Shown here: one piece after another, positions 30,782 through 47,120 of the stretch
Layout of the letters: each line of letters opens with the position of its first letter
Numbering within the stretch: the first letter of the stretch is position 1
Source of the DNA: Thiomicrospira aerophila AL3
GTDB taxonomy: Bacteria > Pseudomonadota > Gammaproteobacteria > Thiomicrospirales > Thiomicrospiraceae
Assembly (NCBI RefSeq): GCF_000227665.2
Contig: NZ_CP007030.1
Span: 992,001 to 1,056,000 of the forward strand
DNA: 64,000 bases
Reading direction: 5' to 3'
Notes under the pieces: model-generated
Database searches by the model: none
Told to the model about the DNA's origin: nothing
What the model saw: the letters and a program-made list of their open reading frames with translations, nothing else
Program-made: the position numbers and the translations under genes

Positions 30782-31000
30782 TTACAGCTTGTCCTCTTGC
30801 TCAATTCGCTGACTGAGTGCCGCTTCTACGGCATCTAAGCGTGACTTACATAATTGATAAGCCTTACTCGCCTCATCGACCATCGGCACCAATTGATCAA
30901 TATCAACCGCATCTGACTGACTCAACTGCTGCGCAATCTCCTGTAAACGTGCATAGTTAGCTTTAAAACTTTGCGATTCGCTATTCGCTTTCATGGTCAT
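30782..31000 (-). CDS. xseB: Exodeoxyribonuclease VII small subunit
   Basis: 72 residues with the XseB pattern FKANYARLQEIAQQLSQSDAVDIDQLVPMVDEAS and a short C-terminal helix. Several XseB copies join one XseA to make exonuclease VII, which degrades single-stranded DNA from both ends. The start overlaps the xseA stop by 4 bases, so the stoichiometry may be set by coupling. Confidence 0.92.
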   Translation of the reverse strand: MTMKANSESQSFKANYARLQEIAQQLSQSDAVDIDQLVPMVDEASKAYQLCKSRLDAVEAALSQRIEQEDKL

Positions 31001-32571
31001 GATGACTCCTGATTATTGTGTGTGGTAATAACGCTGACGGCTCCATCAGCAAACTCAAGATTAAATTGACCGGCTTGCTGAGCGGCCTGTGCCGACAAAA
31101 TCGGCGCCCCCTGGATGGTTTTTGCCAACGCAAAACCTCGTTTAAGTTGTGTTTGTGGTCCCGCACTTAAAATAAACCCGATCCATTGCTGGCACGCTTG
31201 GCGCTGCAGGTTAATTTGCTGTTTCGCACCCTTAGTCACCTGTTGATTGAGTTCACTAAGGTGGGTTTTTAGTGGCTGAATCGGTCGCCAGGCCTGCTGA
31301 TGGATTTGGGTTATCTGGTAATCCAGCTGAATCCGTGCCGCGTTAATTTGACGCAAACTGGTGTGCTGAATTTGCTGATATAACGGACTTAATTGTTGTT
31401 GCCAATAACCGAGTTGTTGGGTTTGTTGAAATCGAAGTTGTTGTTTTAATTGCGCTAAATTTGCTTTTGCCTGCTGAAGTTGTAATAAGCTGGTTTGTTG
31501 AATCACTTGCCAGGCCTGGTTAGCCTGTTTGGCGGCCTGCACAAGTTGTTGGCTAATAGCTGCAATCACCTTACTAGGCGTATCAAAGCGGCGATTTGCC
31601 ACTTCATCTAAAATGGTGTTATCCCGCTCATGACCTATCCCCGTTAATACCGGCAAAGGCGCTTGTGCAATCAGACTGGCGAGTTTGAGGTGATTGAGTG
31701 GATTTAAATCCAATTTGGCCCCACCACCACGAATAATCACCAAAGCATCAAAGGCTTGAACATTATGTCGCGCGATGACGGCTTCAAAGGCAATCGCGAT
31801 TTCATCAGCGGCATTATCCCCTTGAAAGCCACTATAAAAATACACAAACTCACACAGCTGATGTTTGGCAAGATGATCCGCCTCAGCACGAAAATCTCCC
31901 AAACCTGCCGCTTTTGGCGGCGCAATCACCGCTACTCGAAAAAAATCACCAGGCCAAGCAAATCGCTTGTTTTGTTGATAGATGCCCTGCTTGATTAAGG
32001 CTTGTCTAATCGCAATCAAGTTGGCTTCGATGGCGCCTAGTGTAAAGCTGGGGTCAATGCCCACAATCACCAGCGAAAAACCAAAGCGCTCATGAAAATT
32101 CACCTGCACCTGCACCAAGACTTGTTGACCATCCGCTAAGGCACTGCCGGTGACCTGTTCAAAGGACGCCAGTAATGATTCAGCTTGCGATGCCCAAATC
32201 ATCGCGCGACAACTGGCTAGGGTTTGTCCTTGGTCATTATTTTCACTTAGCTCCAGATACCAATGCCCTCTTCGCTCAGACAAATTGGCAATTTCTGCTT
32301 TGACCCAAAGCGTCTGACTAAAGGCTTGCAGCAATCGTTGCTGCACTTGACGCAACAGCTCACTGAGACTCAGTGCGGATTGCTCACCTGCATCACTAGT
32401 TGCATCAACCTGTGCAACAGCGTGCAGTTCTGCAGGCAACCAAGCTTGAAAGGGGGTTAAATCAAGCTGATCGGCATCAGGCAGATACCACTTTTTTTTC
32501 AATGGGTCCCAGCGCGCACCCAGGGCTTTCGCTTGTTCTTTTTGGGCAAAAGGCACTTCAAGATACTGCAC
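30997..32571 (-). CDS. xseA: Exodeoxyribonuclease VII large subunit with N-terminal DUF5710 domain
   Basis: Catalytic subunit of exonuclease VII. After an N-terminal block of about 45 residues (YLEVPFAQKEQAKALGARWD, then KKKWYLP) that matches DUF5710, the normal XseA starts: OB fold (LWVKAEIANLSERRGHWYLEL), catalytic core (VIIRGGGAKLDL, GIGHERDNTILDEVANRRFDTPSKV) and a long coiled coil. Total length about 524 residues against about 450 usual. I place the start at the GTG at 32571: an AGGAGG site lies 6 bases before it, inside the end of dusA, giving a 14-base overlap. Confidence 0.92.
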   Translation of the reverse strand: MQYLEVPFAQKEQAKALGARWDPLKKKWYLPDADQLDLTPFQAWLPAELHAVAQVDATSDAGEQSALSLSELLRQVQQRLLQAFSQTLWVKAEIANLSERRGHWYLELSENNDQGQTLASCRAMIWASQAESLLASFEQVTGSALADGQQVLVQVQVNFHERFGFSLVIVGIDPSFTLGAIEANLIAIRQALIKQGIYQQNKRFAWPGDFFRVAVIAPPKAAGLGDFRAEADHLAKHQLCEFVYFYSGFQGDNAADEIAIAFEAVIARHNVQAFDALVIIRGGGAKLDLNPLNHLKLASLIAQAPLPVLTGIGHERDNTILDEVANRRFDTPSKVIAAISQQLVQAAKQANQAWQVIQQTSLLQLQQAKANLAQLKQQLRFQQTQQLGYWQQQLSPLYQQIQHTSLRQINAARIQLDYQITQIHQQAWRPIQPLKTHLSELNQQVTKGAKQQINLQRQACQQWIGFILSAGPQTQLKRGFALAKTIQGAPILSAQAAQQAGQFNLEFADGAVSVITTHNNQESS

Positions 32572-33613
32572 GACGTGCCTCCTGCTCAGCCATACGCTGG
32601 GTTTCAATCAGCACGCGTTGATACGCGTTTTGCAATACTTCAATGCCGGCTTCCGCTAAGCAGGCCTGCTCAGATAAGGCACGTCGCCATAAACGCCCTC
32701 CCGGACAGCCATGAAACAAGCCCATCATGTGGCGGGTAATATGGCTTAAACGCCCACCCGCTTGCAAATGTGCTTCAATGTAGGGATAGATGGCCTCTAA
32801 CACCTCAGCGCGACTAATCGCGGGTTTGGGATCAGCATAAAATAGCCCATCAACCTCGGCTAATAAGTAGGGGTTTTCATAAATAGCGCGTCCCATCATT
32901 ACCCCATCCACTGCCGGCAAATTGTCATAGGTCGATAAATGGCTTTTGGCATCAACGAGGGTTTTTAAGCCACCATTAATGCTAATGGCTAAATCAGCAA
33001 AATCGGCTTTAATTTGATGCACCCACGCATAATTAAGCGGCGGCACATCTCGGTTTTCCTTTGGTGACAAACCTTGCAGCCAGGCTTTACGCGCATGGAT
33101 CACCACGCCATCGACCCCCGCTTTCACCAGGCCTGCTATAAAGTCAGCGAGGGTTTGATAATCCTCTTGATCATCAATACCAATGCGACATTTTACCGTT
33201 ACAGGAATGGTAACCGCGGCTTTCATCGCGGCAACACTATCCGCAACGAGTTGTGGGTGCGCCATTAAGCAGGCACCAATTAAATTATTTTGCACGCGAT
33301 CACTCGGGCAGCCAACATTAAGATTAATTTCATTATAGCCCCACTCCTCGCCAAGCCTCGCGCACTGCGCCAATTCAGTGGCTTTAGACCCGCCCAGCTG
33401 CAACACCACCGGACTATCCGCTGGATCACGGCCAATAAACCGAGGTAGGTTGTTGCCATACATCATCGCACCGGTCGTGACCATTTCAGAATAGAGCCAG
33501 GCCTGCTGAGTCATTAAACGATGAAAATACCGACAATGTCGGTCAGTCCAATCTAGCATCGGCGCCACTGAAAAACCGCTGGCACTGTTTAAATATAAAG
33601 ATGATGAATCCAA
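32558..33613 (-). CDS. dusA: tRNA-dihydrouridine(20/20a) synthase
   Basis: An FMN enzyme that reduces U20/U20a in tRNA D-loops. 351 residues (E. coli 345): FSVAPMLDWTDRHCRYFHR, LQLGGSKATELAQCA, NLNVGCPSDRVQNN with the catalytic Cys, VTVKCRIGID and SINGGLKTL. DusA features such as LSPKENRDVPPL are present. The AGGAGG ribosome site of xseA lies within its last codons. Three CAGGCCTG palindromes fall inside (32661, 33128, 33498). Confidence 0.95.
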   Translation of the reverse strand: MDSSSLYLNSASGFSVAPMLDWTDRHCRYFHRLMTQQAWLYSEMVTTGAMMYGNNLPRFIGRDPADSPVVLQLGGSKATELAQCARLGEEWGYNEINLNVGCPSDRVQNNLIGACLMAHPQLVADSVAAMKAAVTIPVTVKCRIGIDDQEDYQTLADFIAGLVKAGVDGVVIHARKAWLQGLSPKENRDVPPLNYAWVHQIKADFADLAISINGGLKTLVDAKSHLSTYDNLPAVDGVMMGRAIYENPYLLAEVDGLFYADPKPAISRAEVLEAIYPYIEAHLQAGGRLSHITRHMMGLFHGCPGGRLWRRALSEQACLAEAGIEVLQNAYQRVLIETQRMAEQEARRAVS

Positions 33614-33765
33614 AAATCTCTCACATTTTATATGTCTTAAAAATTAGCTTTATTATAAACAACTTAAACGAGCATAAAAGACGACTATTACGCGTTTTTG
33701 TCGCCATTGCTGGCTGGGAGTTCGTATAATAACGACAATTTAAACCCGAGTAATTGAGTAGGTTA

Positions 33766-34062
33766 ATGCGACCACACCGTTTTGACAGCATTCAATACGA
33801 CTTTAGCCAGCTGGCCAACCAACTCACTTTTGACGAATTAATGGCGCAGCTGCCAGAAATTCTGACCCGTGATTTGAACGATAACCTCTGCGTATGCAAT
33901 AGCATTGCCAAAAAACGCGTCATTCAAGCCATGTACGAAGGCGCCGGCTCCATGGCGCAAATTCGTGAAGCCTGTATGGCTGGCGACGGCACAGGCTGCT
34001 GCAAATTACAGCTTAAACACCTACTCGATGCGATTCAAAAAATTGACAAAAGTAACCCATAA
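33766..34062 (+). CDS. BFD-like [2Fe-2S] protein
   Basis: 98 residues ending in a BFD-like fold: LCVCNSIAKKRVIQAMYEGAGS and REACMAGDGTGCCKLQLKHLL. Canonical BFD domains use CxC plus CxxC; here Cys42 and Cys44 are present but the second pair reads Cys78-Cys79 and the usual fourth Cys is Leu81, so cluster ligation must differ or be lost. It is the first gene of an operon with an RNase J-like protein (3 bases apart) and a flavodoxin. A TTG 12 bases upstream could also start translation. Confidence 0.65.
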   Translation: MRPHRFDSIQYDFSQLANQLTFDELMAQLPEILTRDLNDNLCVCNSIAKKRVIQAMYEGAGSMAQIREACMAGDGTGCCKLQLKHLLDAIQKIDKSNP

Positions 34063-34065
34063 CCC

Positions 34066-35436
34066 ATGAACAATAGCACACCCTTGCTGCAACTACCGAT
34101 TCCCAACTCACGCGATTTTTGGTGTCTACCGCTAGGCGGTGTCGGTGAAATTGGTCAAAATATGATGCTTTATGCCCATGATGGCCAGTATTTAATGGTC
34201 GATTGCGGCCTGGGTTTTGAGCCCATTCCCGGTTCCACGATGCAGTTTCAGCGCGTCATAGCCAACCCTGCCCCGCTGATGCCGTTTGTGAGCAAACTCA
34301 GCGCCATTGTGATTACCCATGGTCATGAAGACCATATTGGCGCCTTGGTACATTTGTGGCCTAAGCTGCGCAAGCCTATCTATGCCAGCCCGTTTGCGAT
34401 GGCACTGATTCGCCGCAAATTTGCCGAAGCCGAGTTACTTGATAAGGTAGAACTTATTACGGTATTACCACATCAGCTGTATCAAATCGGCTCCTTTCAA
34501 GTTAATTGGATTCAGGTGACCCACTCTATTCCGCAATCGCACAGTTTGTTGATTAGTACGTCGCTGGGCTATGTGCTTCATACCGGCGACTGGAAAATCG
34601 ATACCCAACCCTTGGTAGATAAACCCTTTAATTTAAGCGCATTTAAAGACCTAGCCGGTGAACACTTATTAGCGGTGGTAGCCGACTCGACCAATGCCAT
34701 CAAACCCGGCCATACCCCCTCAGAAAGTGCCTGTTACCCGGACTTATTAAAACTGGTTCAAAACCAACCAGGACGCGTAGTGGTCAGTTGTTTTAGTAGC
34801 AACATTGCGCGATTAATCACCCTCGCCCGCGTAGCCAAAGCCAGTGGTCGCTATTTAGCCTTGGCTGGACGCGCATTAGAAAATATGGTCGCCACCGCGC
34901 GTCAACTCGGTTATTGGCCGAGTGACTATCAACCGATTGCGCTCAAAGATTTAGGCTATTTACCCAAGGATGAGGTGTTGTTGGTGACCACGGGGTCGCA
35001 AGGTGAGCCTAATGCGGGTTTATGGCGATTAGCCAAGCAGCAACATCGTTTTTTAGAGTTAGATCCAGGCGACACGGTCATTTTTAGCGCGATACGCATT
35101 CCGGATAACCTCACCCGAATTCGTCAGTTGGAGCGGGCACTGATTCGTTTACAACTGACCGTGATTCATGCCGAAGATCATCCTGAGCTGCATCTACATG
35201 TTTCGGGTCATCCACGCCAAGGCGATATCATTAAGCTTTACGAAGCGCTGCAACCACCGTTATTAATTCCTGTGCACGGTGAGCCAGCACATTTAGCCGC
35301 TCATACCGACTTAGCGACCAATATGGGCATCAAGGTGTTATCCGGTGAAAATGGGGATCTGTTTCGCTTCAAACCTTTTGTCAGTTTAGAGAAACACAAG
35401 GTCAATACCGGTGTGCTTATTATGGATGATGACTAA
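34066..35436 (+). CDS. Ribonuclease J-like metallo-beta-lactamase/beta-CASP protein
   Basis: 456 residues with RNase J landmarks: LPLGGVGEIGQNMMLY, the metal motif VITHGHEDHIGALVHL, HTGDWKID, GSQGEPNAG, VIFSAIRIPDN, and VSGHPRQGDI with IPVHGEPAHL at the end. RNase J degrades and matures RNA from 5' ends and is patchy in gammaproteobacteria. The protein is about 100 residues shorter than Bacillus RNase J and lacks its C-terminal domain. It is coupled to the flavodoxin gene (stop/start overlap TAATG). Confidence 0.8.
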   Translation: MNNSTPLLQLPIPNSRDFWCLPLGGVGEIGQNMMLYAHDGQYLMVDCGLGFEPIPGSTMQFQRVIANPAPLMPFVSKLSAIVITHGHEDHIGALVHLWPKLRKPIYASPFAMALIRRKFAEAELLDKVELITVLPHQLYQIGSFQVNWIQVTHSIPQSHSLLISTSLGYVLHTGDWKIDTQPLVDKPFNLSAFKDLAGEHLLAVVADSTNAIKPGHTPSESACYPDLLKLVQNQPGRVVVSCFSSNIARLITLARVAKASGRYLALAGRALENMVATARQLGYWPSDYQPIALKDLGYLPKDEVLLVTTGSQGEPNAGLWRLAKQQHRFLELDPGDTVIFSAIRIPDNLTRIRQLERALIRLQLTVIHAEDHPELHLHVSGHPRQGDIIKLYEALQPPLLIPVHGEPAHLAAHTDLATNMGIKVLSGENGDLFRFKPFVSLEKHKVNTGVLIMDDD

Positions 35437-35936
35437 TGTTTAATTGGCTAAAAGCCCCTTTTCAGTCAACCACGCCGGTTTTAAAACCGGCTTTAGCAGG
35501 TCTGCAACAAGCGGATTGGCTCATCCTCTACGCTTCGCAATCGGGTAAAGCCAAACGCCTCGCCCATCAAACGGCAGAACAGCTCGCGCCCGCCCAAGTT
35601 AAGGTACTAAGTTTAGGTGAGCTAAATCCAGCTGACTTGGTATTTTTTAAACAGATATTATTTGTGGTCGCCACCTTTGGTGATGGCCGCGCCCCTGATG
35701 CCGCCTTATCCTTTGCCAAAAAAATGTCGAAAACAAAAGTTGATTTAACCCAGCTAAACTTTGGCTTATTAGGTCTAGGCAATCGTCAATATGACGTATT
35801 TTGTGCATTCGGCAAAGCGCTGAATCAATGGCTTTTAGACCATCACGCCCAACCCCTGTTTGATGCGGTTTGGGTCGACCAAATGGATCAAGCGGCGATC
35901 ACGACATGGTACAAATTGGTGCAAAGTGCGATTTAA
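35436..35936 (+). CDS. Flavodoxin-domain protein
   Basis: 166 residues. A flavodoxin-like domain starts near residue 28: ILYASQSGKAKRLAHQTAEQL (FMN phosphate loop), VVATFGDGRAPDAA (first ring loop) and LLGLGNRQYDVFCAFGKAL (second). The pattern is that of the FMN domains of sulfite reductase and P450 reductases rather than long-chain flavodoxins. Its start overlaps the RNase J-like gene. The partner of electron transfer is not evident; the BFD-like protein of the same operon is a candidate. Confidence 0.8.
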   Translation: MFNWLKAPFQSTTPVLKPALAGLQQADWLILYASQSGKAKRLAHQTAEQLAPAQVKVLSLGELNPADLVFFKQILFVVATFGDGRAPDAALSFAKKMSKTKVDLTQLNFGLLGLGNRQYDVFCAFGKALNQWLLDHHAQPLFDAVWVDQMDQAAITTWYKLVQSAI

Positions 35937-41568: not shown

Positions 41569-44262
41569 CTACAGGGCAAGCAACGCTTTTAATTCAGGAA
41601 TACACGAACCGCAATTGGTACCGGCGCAGGTTTTCTCACCAAGTTTCTGCACCGTATCGCAACCCTGCGCCATCGCGGCACGCAAGGTTTTATCCCCCAC
41701 TTGAAAGCAACTGCAAATAATCGCTCCGACATCTTCTTGCTCAATCGCCATGCCACTGAGCAGACTGTAGCGCTCGTTTTGACTAAGACTGAGCTGGTCA
41801 AACAACCCAGATACCCAATCATAGGGCGCTTGCAAATCAACACTGGGCGCTACAAACAGCACCGCTTTTAAACCCCCTTGCGCATCCAGCCAAACGAAGC
41901 GCGCCGTACCTAATGCGCTATCTTCTAAACGCAGATCCGGTTCACCCAGTTGCGGATTCGCCGATTGCCAATGCGCTAAATCAAAGGCTTTCTTATCCGC
42001 CAAATGCCAAAAAACGGCGTTTGCTTTTGGCACTTTCACCCAATAGCCTATGGAATCATCAGGCTGCCAAGCAGTGTCTTTAGTCCAAAAACCAGCGCGA
42101 TAAGCCGCTGACCAGACCTGAATATTCACCACCGCGTGTTTACTTTCCGGCTGACCCGATAAGGGGTCGGTGTGCGATGGAATCAAACTGTCAATCCGCC
42201 CGTGTTTGGCATAGACGCCGGTCCAATGAATCGGTGCAAACACCTGCCCTTTAACCAAGCCTGCATCCAGCTCAACCGGCATCATCACCTGCCCCAATCG
42301 CGAGGAAACCTTCGCCAAATCGCCTTGCGCCAAACCCAAACTTTTCGCATCATCGGGATGCAGGCTCAAACGCGGCTCATCGCGATGCTGCAATAAACGG
42401 GGTGTTTTAGCAGTGCGCGTCATGCTGTGCCATTGATCGCGATAACGCCCGGTATTCAACACAAACGGATAGTCCGGTGAAGGCTTTTCTTTGGGCGATT
42501 GAGGTGTAATCGGAATCAATTTGGCACGGCGATTCGCGGTAAAAAACTGGCCGTCTGCAAACAGTCTGGCTTGACCGTGTGGATGCTGAGCATTAACCGG
42601 CCAAGGTGTCGGGGCAAACTGCTGATAGGCCTGTTCACTGAGCGAGAACAAACCCGATAAATCAAAGTCACGCCGACTGATCACGCCATCATTCTCAAAC
42701 GCCGATAACGCCACGTGTTCCATAAAAATCTGATAAGGCGTTTGATAATTAAACGCCTCGGCAAAGCCCATTTCTTGCGCCACTTGGCAGATCCACCACC
42801 AATCGGCTTGTGCCAGACCTGGTGCTTTACAAAACGCGCGTTGGCGTGAAATATGCCGATCCGAATTGGTCACTGTGCCGTCTTTTTCCCCCCAAGAGGC
42901 GGCGGGCAATAAAATATTCGCACAACGAGTGGTATCCGTGTCGGCCATATTGTCCGACACAATCACCAACTCACAAGCTTGCAAGGCTTCGCGCACAAAA
43001 TCCGCATCCGGCATCGACACCACCGGGTTGGTGTGCATAATCCAAATCGCCTTAATCTCGCCACGATGCACCGCCTCAAACATCTCGACCGCTTTTAGGC
43101 CGTTTTGTTGGGCCATCTTCGGTGCGCGCCAAAATCGGGCAACCCGCTCAATCGCTTCGGGTTGATGAAAATCCATGTGCGCTGCTAATTGATTCGCCAA
43201 ACCGCCGACTTCGCGCCCGCCCATTGCATTCGGCTGACCGGTAATCGAAAAGGGCCCCGCCCCCAACTTGCCAATCCGACCGGTGGCAAGATGGACATTG
43301 ATAATCGCATTCGACTTATCAACACCCGAAGTTGATTGATTGACGCCTTGCGAGTAAAAACTCACCGTGCGCGGCCTATTGGCAAACCAATCAAAAAACT
43401 GGGTTAAATCGGCTTCATCCACGCCACAGGACTGCGCCAACTGTGTTAAATCATGACCGGCGGTTTGCTCGGCCTGATCCAACGCCAGCACCAACCCTTC
43501 GGTATGCTCGATAATAAATTCAGCATCTAAATGATTATGCTTGGCAAGATAGGCCAGTAACCCATTGAATAACAAGGCATCAGTGCCGGGCTTGATCGCC
43601 AAATGCAAATCCGCCAAGTCGCAGCTGGCGGTGCGTCTTGGGTCAATCACCACCACTTTTTTATCTGGCTGCTCACGTTTGGCTTGCGCCATGCGTTGAT
43701 ACAAAATCGGATGCGCCCAAGCGGCATTCGAGCCGACCAACACCAGCAAATCGGCTTGCTCTAAATCCTCGTAACTGCACGGCACCGCATCGGCACCGAA
43801 GGCGCGCTTATACCCCACGACCGCAGAGGCCATACACAAACGTGAATTGGTATCAATATTCGCCGTGCCAATAAAGCCCTTAATCAGTTTATTGGCCACG
43901 TAATAGTCTTCAGTTAACAACTGCCCTGACACATAAAACGCCACCGCATCGGGGCCATGTTGTTCAATCACTCGGCTTAGACCCTCTGCCACTGCTTGGC
44001 AGGCCTGCTCAACTGATACGGCTTGGCCGTTAATTTTCGGCTCAAGTAGTCGCCCGGTTAAATCAAGCGTTTCGCCTAACGCACTGCCTTTCACACACAA
44101 CTTGCCAAAATTGGCCGGATGGCTGGCATCGCCAAGCGCCTGCCAGCTTTCACCCCCAGACTTCGGTTGCATCGCTACGCCACATCCGACCCCGCAATAG
44201 GGGCAGGTAGTTTTCACTGGCGCCAATTCATTAGGCCTGCTGGCTATGGCTGTGCGACCCAT
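41569..44262 (-). CDS. nasA: Assimilatory nitrate reductase, catalytic subunit
   Basis: Cytoplasmic Mo-bis-MGD enzyme reducing nitrate to nitrite, 897 residues. The N-terminal [4Fe-4S] motif is CPYCGVGCGV..CVKG near residue 20; the molybdopterin domains follow (NSRLCMASAVVGYKRAFGAD with the Mo-ligand Cys; SFYSQGVNQSTSG). The C-terminus carries a BFD-like [2Fe-2S] domain (CSCFQVGDKTL, CAGTNCGSC), as in Klebsiella NasA. It has no Tat signal, consistent with assimilation. Start overlaps nirD by 19 bases. Confidence 0.96.
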   Translation of the reverse strand: MGRTAIASRPNELAPVKTTCPYCGVGCGVAMQPKSGGESWQALGDASHPANFGKLCVKGSALGETLDLTGRLLEPKINGQAVSVEQACQAVAEGLSRVIEQHGPDAVAFYVSGQLLTEDYYVANKLIKGFIGTANIDTNSRLCMASAVVGYKRAFGADAVPCSYEDLEQADLLVLVGSNAAWAHPILYQRMAQAKREQPDKKVVVIDPRRTASCDLADLHLAIKPGTDALLFNGLLAYLAKHNHLDAEFIIEHTEGLVLALDQAEQTAGHDLTQLAQSCGVDEADLTQFFDWFANRPRTVSFYSQGVNQSTSGVDKSNAIINVHLATGRIGKLGAGPFSITGQPNAMGGREVGGLANQLAAHMDFHQPEAIERVARFWRAPKMAQQNGLKAVEMFEAVHRGEIKAIWIMHTNPVVSMPDADFVREALQACELVIVSDNMADTDTTRCANILLPAASWGEKDGTVTNSDRHISRQRAFCKAPGLAQADWWWICQVAQEMGFAEAFNYQTPYQIFMEHVALSAFENDGVISRRDFDLSGLFSLSEQAYQQFAPTPWPVNAQHPHGQARLFADGQFFTANRRAKLIPITPQSPKEKPSPDYPFVLNTGRYRDQWHSMTRTAKTPRLLQHRDEPRLSLHPDDAKSLGLAQGDLAKVSSRLGQVMMPVELDAGLVKGQVFAPIHWTGVYAKHGRIDSLIPSHTDPLSGQPESKHAVVNIQVWSAAYRAGFWTKDTAWQPDDSIGYWVKVPKANAVFWHLADKKAFDLAHWQSANPQLGEPDLRLEDSALGTARFVWLDAQGGLKAVLFVAPSVDLQAPYDWVSGLFDQLSLSQNERYSLLSGMAIEQEDVGAIICSCFQVGDKTLRAAMAQGCDTVQKLGEKTCAGTNCGSCIPELKALLAL

Positions 44263-44579
44263 ACCGCCTCCTCACCTGTCGCACCACGCACCTGAACAGG
44301 AAACACCGTCAGTTTCATCTCTGGGTTTTCAAGGCATTGACCGTTGGCCAAATCGTAATGCTCTTTGTAAAGCGGTGAGGCCACCACCAACTGGCCTTTG
44401 ATACTGCCAACGATGCCGCGCGACATCACACTGGCTTGCCCAATCGGATCAAAGTTATCCAACGCATAGACCTTGCCTTTGACATAAAACAGCGCAATCG
44501 GTGTGGTGTCCAATAAGGCAGGGATACCTGCATTATCAATTAAATCAGAAACTTGGCATACTTTTTTAAACTCGCCCAT
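44244..44579 (-). CDS. nirD: Nitrite reductase small subunit
   Basis: 111-residue Rieske-like NirD partner of NirB. The family pattern is present (VSDLIDNAGIPALLDTTPIALFYV, GSIKGQLVVASPLYKEHYDLANGQCL), while the Rieske cluster Cys/His are absent as normal for NirD. It lies 10 bases after nirB and overlaps nasA. Confidence 0.95.
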   Translation of the reverse strand: MGEFKKVCQVSDLIDNAGIPALLDTTPIALFYVKGKVYALDNFDPIGQASVMSRGIVGSIKGQLVVASPLYKEHYDLANGQCLENPEMKLTVFPVQVRGATGEEAVWVAQP

Positions 44580-44588
44580 AACCTTCTC

Positions 44589-47120
44589 CTACACCACTTC
44601 CAGTTCAATCGATTCCAACCGTTCTTGCGCGGTCGCCGGGCGCAACTGACCGCGTTCTCGCACATAGACCTGATTTGGATCACGCACATCCGCATTAACA
44701 AAGTTATAGAACAACTTGGTTTTTTCCGGATCGTCCACTGCGCGTTGCCAATCACAGGCATAACTGTCCACCAAGGCTTGCATCTGCTGTTCTAGCTGTT
44801 CGGCAATGCCTAATGAGTCTTCAATCACTACTTGACGGACATAATCCAAGCCACCTTCAAGGTTTTCTAACCAGGTCGATGTACGGTGCAAACGATCAGC
44901 GGTTTGGATATAAAACATAATAAAACGGTCGATGTACTTGAACAGGGTCTCGCGGTCTAAACCCACCGCGAATAAATCGGCATGGCGCGGCTTCATACCG
45001 CCATTGCCACAAACAAAAAGATTCCAGCCGTTTTCCGTGGCAATCACGCCAACGTCTTTCGCTTGCGCTTCAGCACATTCACGGGTACAACCGGATACCC
45101 CCATTTTCATTTTGTGTGGTGAGCGCACGCCTTTATAACGATTTTCCAAATCAATCGCTAACTGCACCGAATCATCAATGCCATAACGACACCAGGTTGA
45201 GCCGACGCAGGATTTCACCGTGCGCAAGGCTTTAGCATAGGCTTGGCCGGATTCAAATCCACCGTCAATCAAGCGCGACCAGATGGTCGGTAGATCGCTC
45301 AATTGTGCGCCAAACAACACAATCCGCTGACCACCGTTGATCTTGGTATAGAGTTGATAGTCCTTCGCCACCTCACCCAATAAAATCAGCTTGTCCGGGG
45401 TTATCTCGCCGCCCGGAACACGCGGAATGACCGAATAGGTGCCGTCCTTTTGCATATTGCCCAAATAACGGTCATTGGTGTCTTGCAGTGGGATGTTCTT
45501 TTTGTCAAACGCATAGGCATTCCACACCGAGCCTAAAATCGAGGCCACCGCTGGTTTACAAATATCACAGCCATCACCTTCGCCATGCGCCGCCAGCAAT
45601 TCATCAAAGGTTTGATAACCATTCACCCGCACCAAGTGATACAGCTCTTGGCGGGTATAGGGAAAATGCTCACAAATCGCTTTCGAGACTGCCACACCGC
45701 GTTTTTCCAGTTCAAAATTCATCACACTGGTGACCAACTGAGTGCAACCGCCGCAACCGGTGCAGGCTTGGGTGCAGGCTTTAATATCCGCCAAACAGCT
45801 CGCGCCCTCATCCAATGCGCTAATCAGATCTTGCTTGGATACGTCGTAACAGGAACAAAGTTGGGCCGTTAATGGCAAAGCATCCGGACCCAAACCCACC
45901 TTTTCACCGGAAAATGACGGCAAAATCAATTGTTCCGGATGCTCGGGTAACGCCATGTCATTCAATTTCAATTGCAACAAGCTGCCGTAGTCTTCAGTAT
46001 CGCCAACCAGCACCGCACCGAGCAATTTTTTGCCGTCCGCCGACACCACTAGTTTTTTGTAAATCTCTTTTGGACCGTTTTCATAGATATAGGATTTGGC
46101 GTCTTCATCCGTGCCATGCGGGTCGCCAATCGAGGCGACATCCACCCCCATCAGTTTTAATTTGGTGGACATATCTGCGCCAACAAACTGTGCCGGCTTG
46201 TGATTCAACTGATCGACCACCGCTTGCGCCATCGCATAACCCGGCGCAACCAAACCGTAAATCATGCCCTCATGCAAAGCACATTCGCCAATCGCATAGA
46301 TATGCGGATCGGAGGTTAAACATTGATCATTAATCACAATCCCGCCGCGTGGTCCTTTAACCAGGCCTGCTAGATCGGCCAATTCATCTCTGGGGCGAAT
46401 ACCGGCGGAAAACAGCACAAAATCGGTTTCCAGCGATTCACCGTCAGCAAACACCAAGCGATGACGTGCCTGCTCACCGTCTTCAATCACTTGGGTGGCT
46501 TTGGAGGTATGCACCCCAACACCAAGTTGTTGGATTTTGCGCTTGAGTACCGCTGCACCGCCTTCATCCAATTGCACCGGCATTAATCTTGGTGCAAATT
46601 CGACCACATGGCTTTCTAACCCCAAGTCCACCAAGGCTTTCGCCGCTTCTAACCCCAATAAACCACCGCCAATCACCACGCCGATTTTTGAGGTTTGTGC
46701 GGCATCTTTCATTGCCTCCAAATCTTCAATGGTGCGATACACCAAACAGGCTTCGCGGTCATTCCCTGGAATCGGCGGCACAAATGGATAAGAGCCAGTA
46801 GCCAACACCAACAGGTCGTAGTTGACGACCAGGCCTGCTTGTGTGGTCACGGTTTTCGCGTGTTTATCAATCGCCACGACTTTTTGATTCAGACGAATAT
46901 CTATGCCATGCTCGGCATAAAAACCCGCCGGCACCAGCGACAAGTCTTCAGCGGTTTTACCCGAAAAATAGGACGACAAATGCACACGGTCATAGGCCAC
47001 CCGCGATTCTTCACCAAACACGGTAATGTCAAAGTCGTGAAACCCGCTCGATTTCACCAAGCGTTCCAAAAATGCATGACCGACCATGCCATTGCCCACG
47101 ACGATTAATTTTGTTTTCAT
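44589..47120 (-). CDS. nirB: NAD(P)H-dependent nitrite reductase large subunit
   Basis: Reduces nitrite to ammonium in the cytoplasm. 843 residues: FAD/NAD(P) domains (VVGNGMVGHAFLERL; GVVIGGGLLGLEAAKAL), BFD-like [2Fe-2S] near 430-480 (CSCYDVSKQDL, CTQACTGCGGCTQL) and the siroheme/[4Fe-4S] half with Cys-x5-Cys (CVGSTWC) and Cys-x3-Cys (CTREC). All four iron-sulfur/siroheme cysteines are present. Its start overlaps the preceding flavoprotein gene by 4 bases. Confidence 0.96.
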   Translation of the reverse strand: MKTKLIVVGNGMVGHAFLERLVKSSGFHDFDITVFGEESRVAYDRVHLSSYFSGKTAEDLSLVPAGFYAEHGIDIRLNQKVVAIDKHAKTVTTQAGLVVNYDLLVLATGSYPFVPPIPGNDREACLVYRTIEDLEAMKDAAQTSKIGVVIGGGLLGLEAAKALVDLGLESHVVEFAPRLMPVQLDEGGAAVLKRKIQQLGVGVHTSKATQVIEDGEQARHRLVFADGESLETDFVLFSAGIRPRDELADLAGLVKGPRGGIVINDQCLTSDPHIYAIGECALHEGMIYGLVAPGYAMAQAVVDQLNHKPAQFVGADMSTKLKLMGVDVASIGDPHGTDEDAKSYIYENGPKEIYKKLVVSADGKKLLGAVLVGDTEDYGSLLQLKLNDMALPEHPEQLILPSFSGEKVGLGPDALPLTAQLCSCYDVSKQDLISALDEGASCLADIKACTQACTGCGGCTQLVTSVMNFELEKRGVAVSKAICEHFPYTRQELYHLVRVNGYQTFDELLAAHGEGDGCDICKPAVASILGSVWNAYAFDKKNIPLQDTNDRYLGNMQKDGTYSVIPRVPGGEITPDKLILLGEVAKDYQLYTKINGGQRIVLFGAQLSDLPTIWSRLIDGGFESGQAYAKALRTVKSCVGSTWCRYGIDDSVQLAIDLENRYKGVRSPHKMKMGVSGCTRECAEAQAKDVGVIATENGWNLFVCGNGGMKPRHADLFAVGLDRETLFKYIDRFIMFYIQTADRLHRTSTWLENLEGGLDYVRQVVIEDSLGIAEQLEQQMQALVDSYACDWQRAVDDPEKTKLFYNFVNADVRDPNQVYVRERGQLRPATAQERLESIELEVV

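Follow-up and report, generated by a model that had tools for sequence, protein, structure and literature searches.

Why do the genes of a small iron-sulfur-like protein, an RNase J-like nuclease and a flavodoxin lie end to end, and does their packing couple the redox state to RNA decay? This question is raised by a locus in the window (the whole stretch of 64,000 nucleotides that was analysed), which is part of a 2.16 Mb genome on a single contig. The sequence-only reading had proposed either a redox control of RNA decay or an MBL protein with a function other than that of a nuclease. After a survey of relatives we regard it as likely that the locus is a young, lineage-specific operon, in which three separately useful genes came under common expression without direct redox control.

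Gene layout and protein families

The gene of the BFD-like protein (98 aa) runs on the plus strand from an ATG at 33766 to a stop at 34062 and is followed, after a 3-nt gap, by the gene of a 456-aa RNase J (34066..35436, plus strand). The flavodoxin gene (166 aa; 35436..35936, plus strand) overlaps the RNase J gene by 1 nt, the RNase J stop and the flavodoxin start being joined in the sequence TAATG at 35434..35438. Coordinates, strand and spacing of the three tightly spaced genes were thereby borne out, and the same head-to-tail packing was found in two relatives, G060 and G053. Judging from these junctions, at which the genes abut or overlap, co-transcription and translational coupling of the trio are probable. 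The trio is flanked by a divergent dusA and by an EAL-domain gene. A weak candidate promoter with TATAAT lies at 33701..33730 on the plus strand and its TATAAT stretch is present again in G060; the combined promoter and terminator scan stayed at chance level, with 4 found against 4.7 expected. Also in the window (30997-32607), the large subunit of exonuclease VII, XseA, has a DUF5710 domain (60 bits) at its N-terminus. We know of no earlier instance of such an XseA-DUF5710 fusion.

The MBL/beta-CASP protein was identified as being of RNase J type, with 108.9 bits for RNase_J_b_CASP (PF22505) and 43.5 bits for RMMBL (PF07521). It matched the RNase J structures 8cgl and 7pcr, and its best match to a solved RNase J covered query residues 17-437 with an E-value of 4.7e-75. 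The 470-aa RNase J chains 5haa and 5ws2, also among the structure matches, are presumably archaeal. The motifs HxHxDH, His153, Asp175, SGH and PVHGE are present; the metal and SGH positions did not vary in any of the 13 family members and agreed residue by residue with solved RNase J chains. For the suggestion that the MBL protein is not a nuclease, one can point to the TIGR00649 match of 330 bits, below the cut-off of 400, though this match covers the model to 434 of 546 and stops where the C-terminal domain is missing. With the catalytic motifs kept intact, we consider that suggestion extremely improbable.

The MBL protein lacks the C-terminal domain, about 100 aa long, that bacterial RNase J possesses. 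Counted from the PxHG motif, its tail comprises 55 aa, compared to 162-165 aa in seven alphaproteobacterial rows. This length was 54-75 aa in 80 of 87 rows and 162-165 aa in the other seven, all titled Alphaproteobacteria; one short-tail row titled Thalassobium (L153; taxonomy: Paracoccaceae) grouped with Thalassolituus. In a tree of 96 rows, calculated by a quick method and leaving out L122 (same genome as L013), L162, L166 and the loci without a clustered frame, the 13 family rows formed one clade (SH-aLRT 99) nested in a short-form clade of 87 rows (99). The class rows L247 and L248 (f171), which have longer frames, fell outside this short clade. Judged by these sequences, the RNase J clade without C-terminal domain spans many Gammaproteobacteria. 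A short RNase J with 45% identity was also present on a contig titled as a Klebsiella pneumoniae MAG (L166), probably by a binning or naming error.

RNase J had been called patchy in Gammaproteobacteria, and so it proved: it was found in 13 of 369 genomes of the class sample (E 1e-30) and in 13 of 62 genomes of the family. The genome of the window also holds genes of RNase E and RNase G type. In the available parts of PMC8406224 and PMC3997798, Gammaproteobacteria are described as largely without RNase J or as relying almost exclusively on RNase E/G. A wide gammaproteobacterial clade with an RNase J reduced to the catalytic core stands in contrast to these accounts, as far as those parts go.

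The FMN domain noticed earlier belongs to the Flavodoxin_1 family (74.7 bits, cut-off 25). Closest models were CysJ (72.5 bits) and MioC (65.4 bits), both scores being under the whole-protein cut-offs, and the best solved match was 1ykg, the flavodoxin domain of CysJ. Relatives with at most 40% identity in the family were mostly domains of larger frames. A second flavodoxin, of FldA type, is encoded elsewhere in the same genome. A close flavodoxin (at least 45% identity) was found in 5 of 62 family genomes, and all five also contain RNase J, which overall occurs in the 13 of 62 (Fisher 0.0002). Since the genomes with the close flavodoxin are related, and the genes lie apart in two of the five, this association represents about three events at most.

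A BFD-like protein with adjacent cysteines

The match of the BFD-like protein to Fer2_BFD (PF04324) was borderline, with 25.7 bits and 26.3 bits at a cut-off of 26. Residues 42-88 aligned without gaps to positions 3-49 of the Pfam profile, and residues 41-84 likewise to residues 3-46 of solved Bfd. The protein has a CxC at residues 42/44 and the residues C78, C79, K80 and L81. The sequence-only reading had described Cys-Cys and Leu in place of the normal CxxC; the residues are there, but the register was wrong. In the ungapped alignment C79 occupies the position of the fourth Cys ligand of Bfd and T76 that of the third; it is thus the third Cys that is displaced, with C78 as an additional Cys between these two positions. 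The protein hence departs from the canonical four-ligand pattern (CxC and CxxC) in that the CxC is kept and xxCC is found instead of CxxC, with four Cys remaining. C78 could stand in for the lost third ligand, and the protein is probably a small [2Fe-2S] electron carrier with C42, C44, C78 and C79 as ligands. An AlphaFold2 model of the BFD protein alone was poor, with a mean pLDDT of 54.3 and a pTM of 0.37.

In 50 of the 51 relatives that were read the pattern CxC-X33-CC is conserved, and the adjacent cysteines of the BFD-like protein are therefore no chance match. The 51 rows consist of 47 (46 of CC type and L214, with a canonical CGGC) plus L042, L043, L097 and L098, all of CC type; in all 46 core sequences the spacing from CxC to CC was 33. 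Family rows had been extracted by a pattern (a Gly before a Cys 26-36 residues after the CxC) that both the canonical and the CC type can fit. In NirB and NasA, encoded by the same genome, the pattern is CxC-X31-CxxC. Within the window (41569-47120), a BFD domain lies at the end of NasA and another within NirB, each with the canonical CxxC, and the NirB frame contains a second, weak BFD match.

Within the family, 54 of 62 genomes have a stand-alone BFD frame (an open frame of at most 149 aa), of which those of 36 genomes were read; any BFD match, domains of larger proteins included, was found in 58 of 62. In the class sample the CC type occurred in 18 of 369 genomes (17 intact, 1 interrupted) from 11 family groups, and the remaining BFD matches were one canonical small protein and NirB-sized frames. 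Clustering of the neighbours of the BFD genes gave no constant partner gene. With its spacing the BFD-like protein is no isolated case; it belongs to a conserved CC-type BFD family of Gammaproteobacteria. The accessible parts of the literature on Fer2_BFD and on bacterioferritin-associated ferredoxin (cysteine, 2Fe-2S), including PMC12363616, do not name a CC variant, and the family may thus be undescribed. Small BFD proteins with a constant CxC-X33-CC form a separate family, whose putative cluster is open to direct test, and we find this by-product the more interesting one.

Two further observations were made among the CC-type sequences. In the single-contig genome G095 a CC-type BFD gene (L213:1218-1503), counted apart from the 51 rows, is broken directly after the CxC by an unrelated stretch of about 286 bp, which contains one 12-nt inverted repeat and gave no match in an Rfam search. 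In a subgroup (L096, L097, L098, L100, L076, L201, L212) the CxC is followed by Tyr, and a further Cys stands a few residues ahead of the CC, as in TYACQGxGCC and similar sequences; this Cys is a possible alternative ligand.

The similarity to Fer2_BFD could also mean that the protein acts as a Bfd that releases iron from ferritin and is fed by the flavodoxin. Three genes of the ferritin superfamily are present in the genome; they encode, however, an FtnA-type ferritin, a Dps and an unclassified ferritin-like protein, and none of these three matches corresponds to a bacterioferritin model. We consider a role in ferritin iron release very unlikely. A 180-aa ferritin-superfamily protein of this genome (L253; 1997814-1998185, minus strand) matched no NCBIfam model at 1e-5.

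Conservation and origin of the trio

The three genes were adjacent only in the genome of the window (G000), G060 and G053, i.e. in 3 of 62 family genomes and in one subclade of one genus. The trio thus extends beyond this strain, but to only two further species. A gene order common to more than one lineage was not found (3 of 62 family genomes, none of 80 named loci), and no relative of the BFD protein or the flavodoxin occurred within 6 kb of RNase J in any of the 80 named loci. Neighbour clustering around RNase J gave varied neighbours and no common partner; the neighbour table left out 6 of the 80 loci, for which the RNase J cluster contained no frame, while the 6-kb scan covered all 80. 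A stand-alone BFD without RNase J was present in 41 family genomes, and in the class sample outside the family the CC-type BFD occurred in 15 genomes and RNase J in 11, with no genome having both. A general link between redox proteins and the nuclease is not supported by these numbers.

Inside the subclade the arrangement has been kept. The TAATG overlap between RNase J and flavodoxin genes was identical in all three genomes; the BFD-RNase J junction was tight but variable, the genes being 3 nt apart in the window, overlapping by 4 nt in G060 and joined by TAATG in G053. Between G000 and G053 dS was 1.0-1.7, and hence the order of the trio has outlived near-saturation of synonymous sites. The dN/dS values for this pair were 0.07 (BFD), 0.05 (RNase J) and 0.12 (flavodoxin); all three genes are under purifying selection. 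The EAL gene beside the trio was not at that position in G053, so the trio was retained and the neighbour was not.

In the same genus, the BFD gene of G054, G055, G056, G058 and G059 lies behind ilvBHC-like genes, and RNase J of G054, G055 and G059 beside a thiD-like gene (gene names assigned by eye). No other stand-alone BFD match was found in the three trio genomes, and the gene therefore seems to have moved rather than doubled.

The BFD protein changed quickly on the branch to the trio. Its mean identity to CC-type BFDs of other genera was 42%, as against 58-63% for six congeners, and in the BFD tree the branch to the trio clade had a length of 0.57 changes per column with a support of 100/100, on 62 columns only. 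Unique changes were more numerous on the trio side in 40 of 40 comparisons (e.g. 13 to 0 and 13 to 1) and significantly so (p <0.05) in 23; the comparisons are not independent of each other, and significance was mostly absent where more distant outgroups were used. Of 15 comparisons for RNase J, 12 showed no rate excess on the trio side. The remaining three, all with G061 as outgroup, gave significant counts (59 to 26, 54 to 27 and 55 to 31), but G061 was placed with the congeners in the 96-row tree and is thus no valid outgroup. The acceleration of the BFD protein is a sign of a new role, which may be tied to its new neighbours.

This acceleration is one of the points in favour of redox-controlled RNA decay, in which the BFD protein (and the flavodoxin) would bind or modify RNase J and the state of the cluster or the electron supply would set its activity. 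The tight junctions kept across saturated synonymous divergence, the close flavodoxin and RNase J occurring together in 5 of 5 genomes, and the missing C-terminal domain, with which the oligomer contacts of RNase J may differ, fit such a control as well. Against it stand the restriction of the trio to three species, the 41 family genomes with stand-alone BFD and without RNase J, the class sample, where none of the 15 and 11 genomes from outside the family had both genes, and the rate of RNase J, which was not raised. We know of no redox cofactor of RNase J, and the parts available of the literature on RNase J with iron-sulfur showed no such redox link. Taken together, we consider this control unlikely. 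In its most specific form, an undescribed CC-type BFD with adjacent Cys ligands would have been recruited with a burst of change and would, with the flavodoxin, set the activity of a trimmed, redox-wired RNase J; we regard this as a long shot. If a redox link were true, RNA turnover would answer directly to electron supply.

Another partner for the redox proteins is offered by the nas/nir cluster with moeA and mobA downstream of the trio. The BFD protein and the flavodoxin could feed the assimilatory nitrate and nitrite reductases (NasA, NirBD), with RNase J as a bystander; NasA and NirB of this cluster carry BFD domains, and moeA, mobA and nasA lie near the trio also in G060 and G053. However, these BFD domains are the reductases' own and have the canonical CxxC, the cluster already contains a reductase-like protein and lies on the opposite strand, and NirB/NasA-sized frames with BFD matches are likewise present in the trio-less congeners G054, G055 and G058. 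We consider a supply of these reductases quite improbable.

A young operon is supported by the adjacency in 3 of 62 genomes, the different gene locations in the congeners, the tight junctions, the low dN/dS, the varied neighbours of RNase J and BFD, the 80 RNase J loci without either partner, the presence of RNase E and G and the placement of the family's RNase J as one clade among the gammaproteobacterial forms without C-terminal domain. In the ancestor of the three species, the BFD gene would have moved next to RNase J and flavodoxin genes. The BFD-like protein, as a CC-type BFD, would serve as a small [2Fe-2S] electron carrier. RNase J without its C-terminal domain, predicted to be active from its intact motifs, may take part, along with RNase E and G, in the decay or maturation of RNA, and the flavodoxin, as a CysJ/MioC-type FMN protein, may pass electrons to or from the BFD protein or another reductase. 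Two observations count against the plain operon and would be compatible with a functional link within the trio clade, namely the rapid change of the BFD protein and the joint occurrence of flavodoxin and RNase J; co-expression without direct redox control is nevertheless the most likely state.

Comparison with known systems

With bacterial RNase J (TIGR00649) the MBL protein shares the MBL, beta-CASP and RMMBL parts and the catalytic motifs, but its C-terminal domain is missing. The trio flavodoxin is of the same Flavodoxin_1 family as the CysJ flavodoxin domain and MioC; it differs in being a stand-alone protein, without the FAD/NADPH part and with about 25 extra N-terminal residues.

For adjacent cysteines in iron-sulfur proteins there is precedent in complex I N2 and in Dph1-Dph2, according to the parts available of PMC8042128 and PMC11048331. 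The tandem Cys of these proteins resemble those of the CC-type BFD, whereas the folds are unrelated and the cluster of the CC-type BFD is putative. Bfd and the Fer2_BFD domains, including those of NirB and NasA, are the nearer relatives: the BFD-like protein has in common with them the CxC, the fourth Cys in register and the domain length, and differs by CxC-X33-CC in place of CxC-X31-CxxC, the third Cys being lost and a new one adjoining the fourth.
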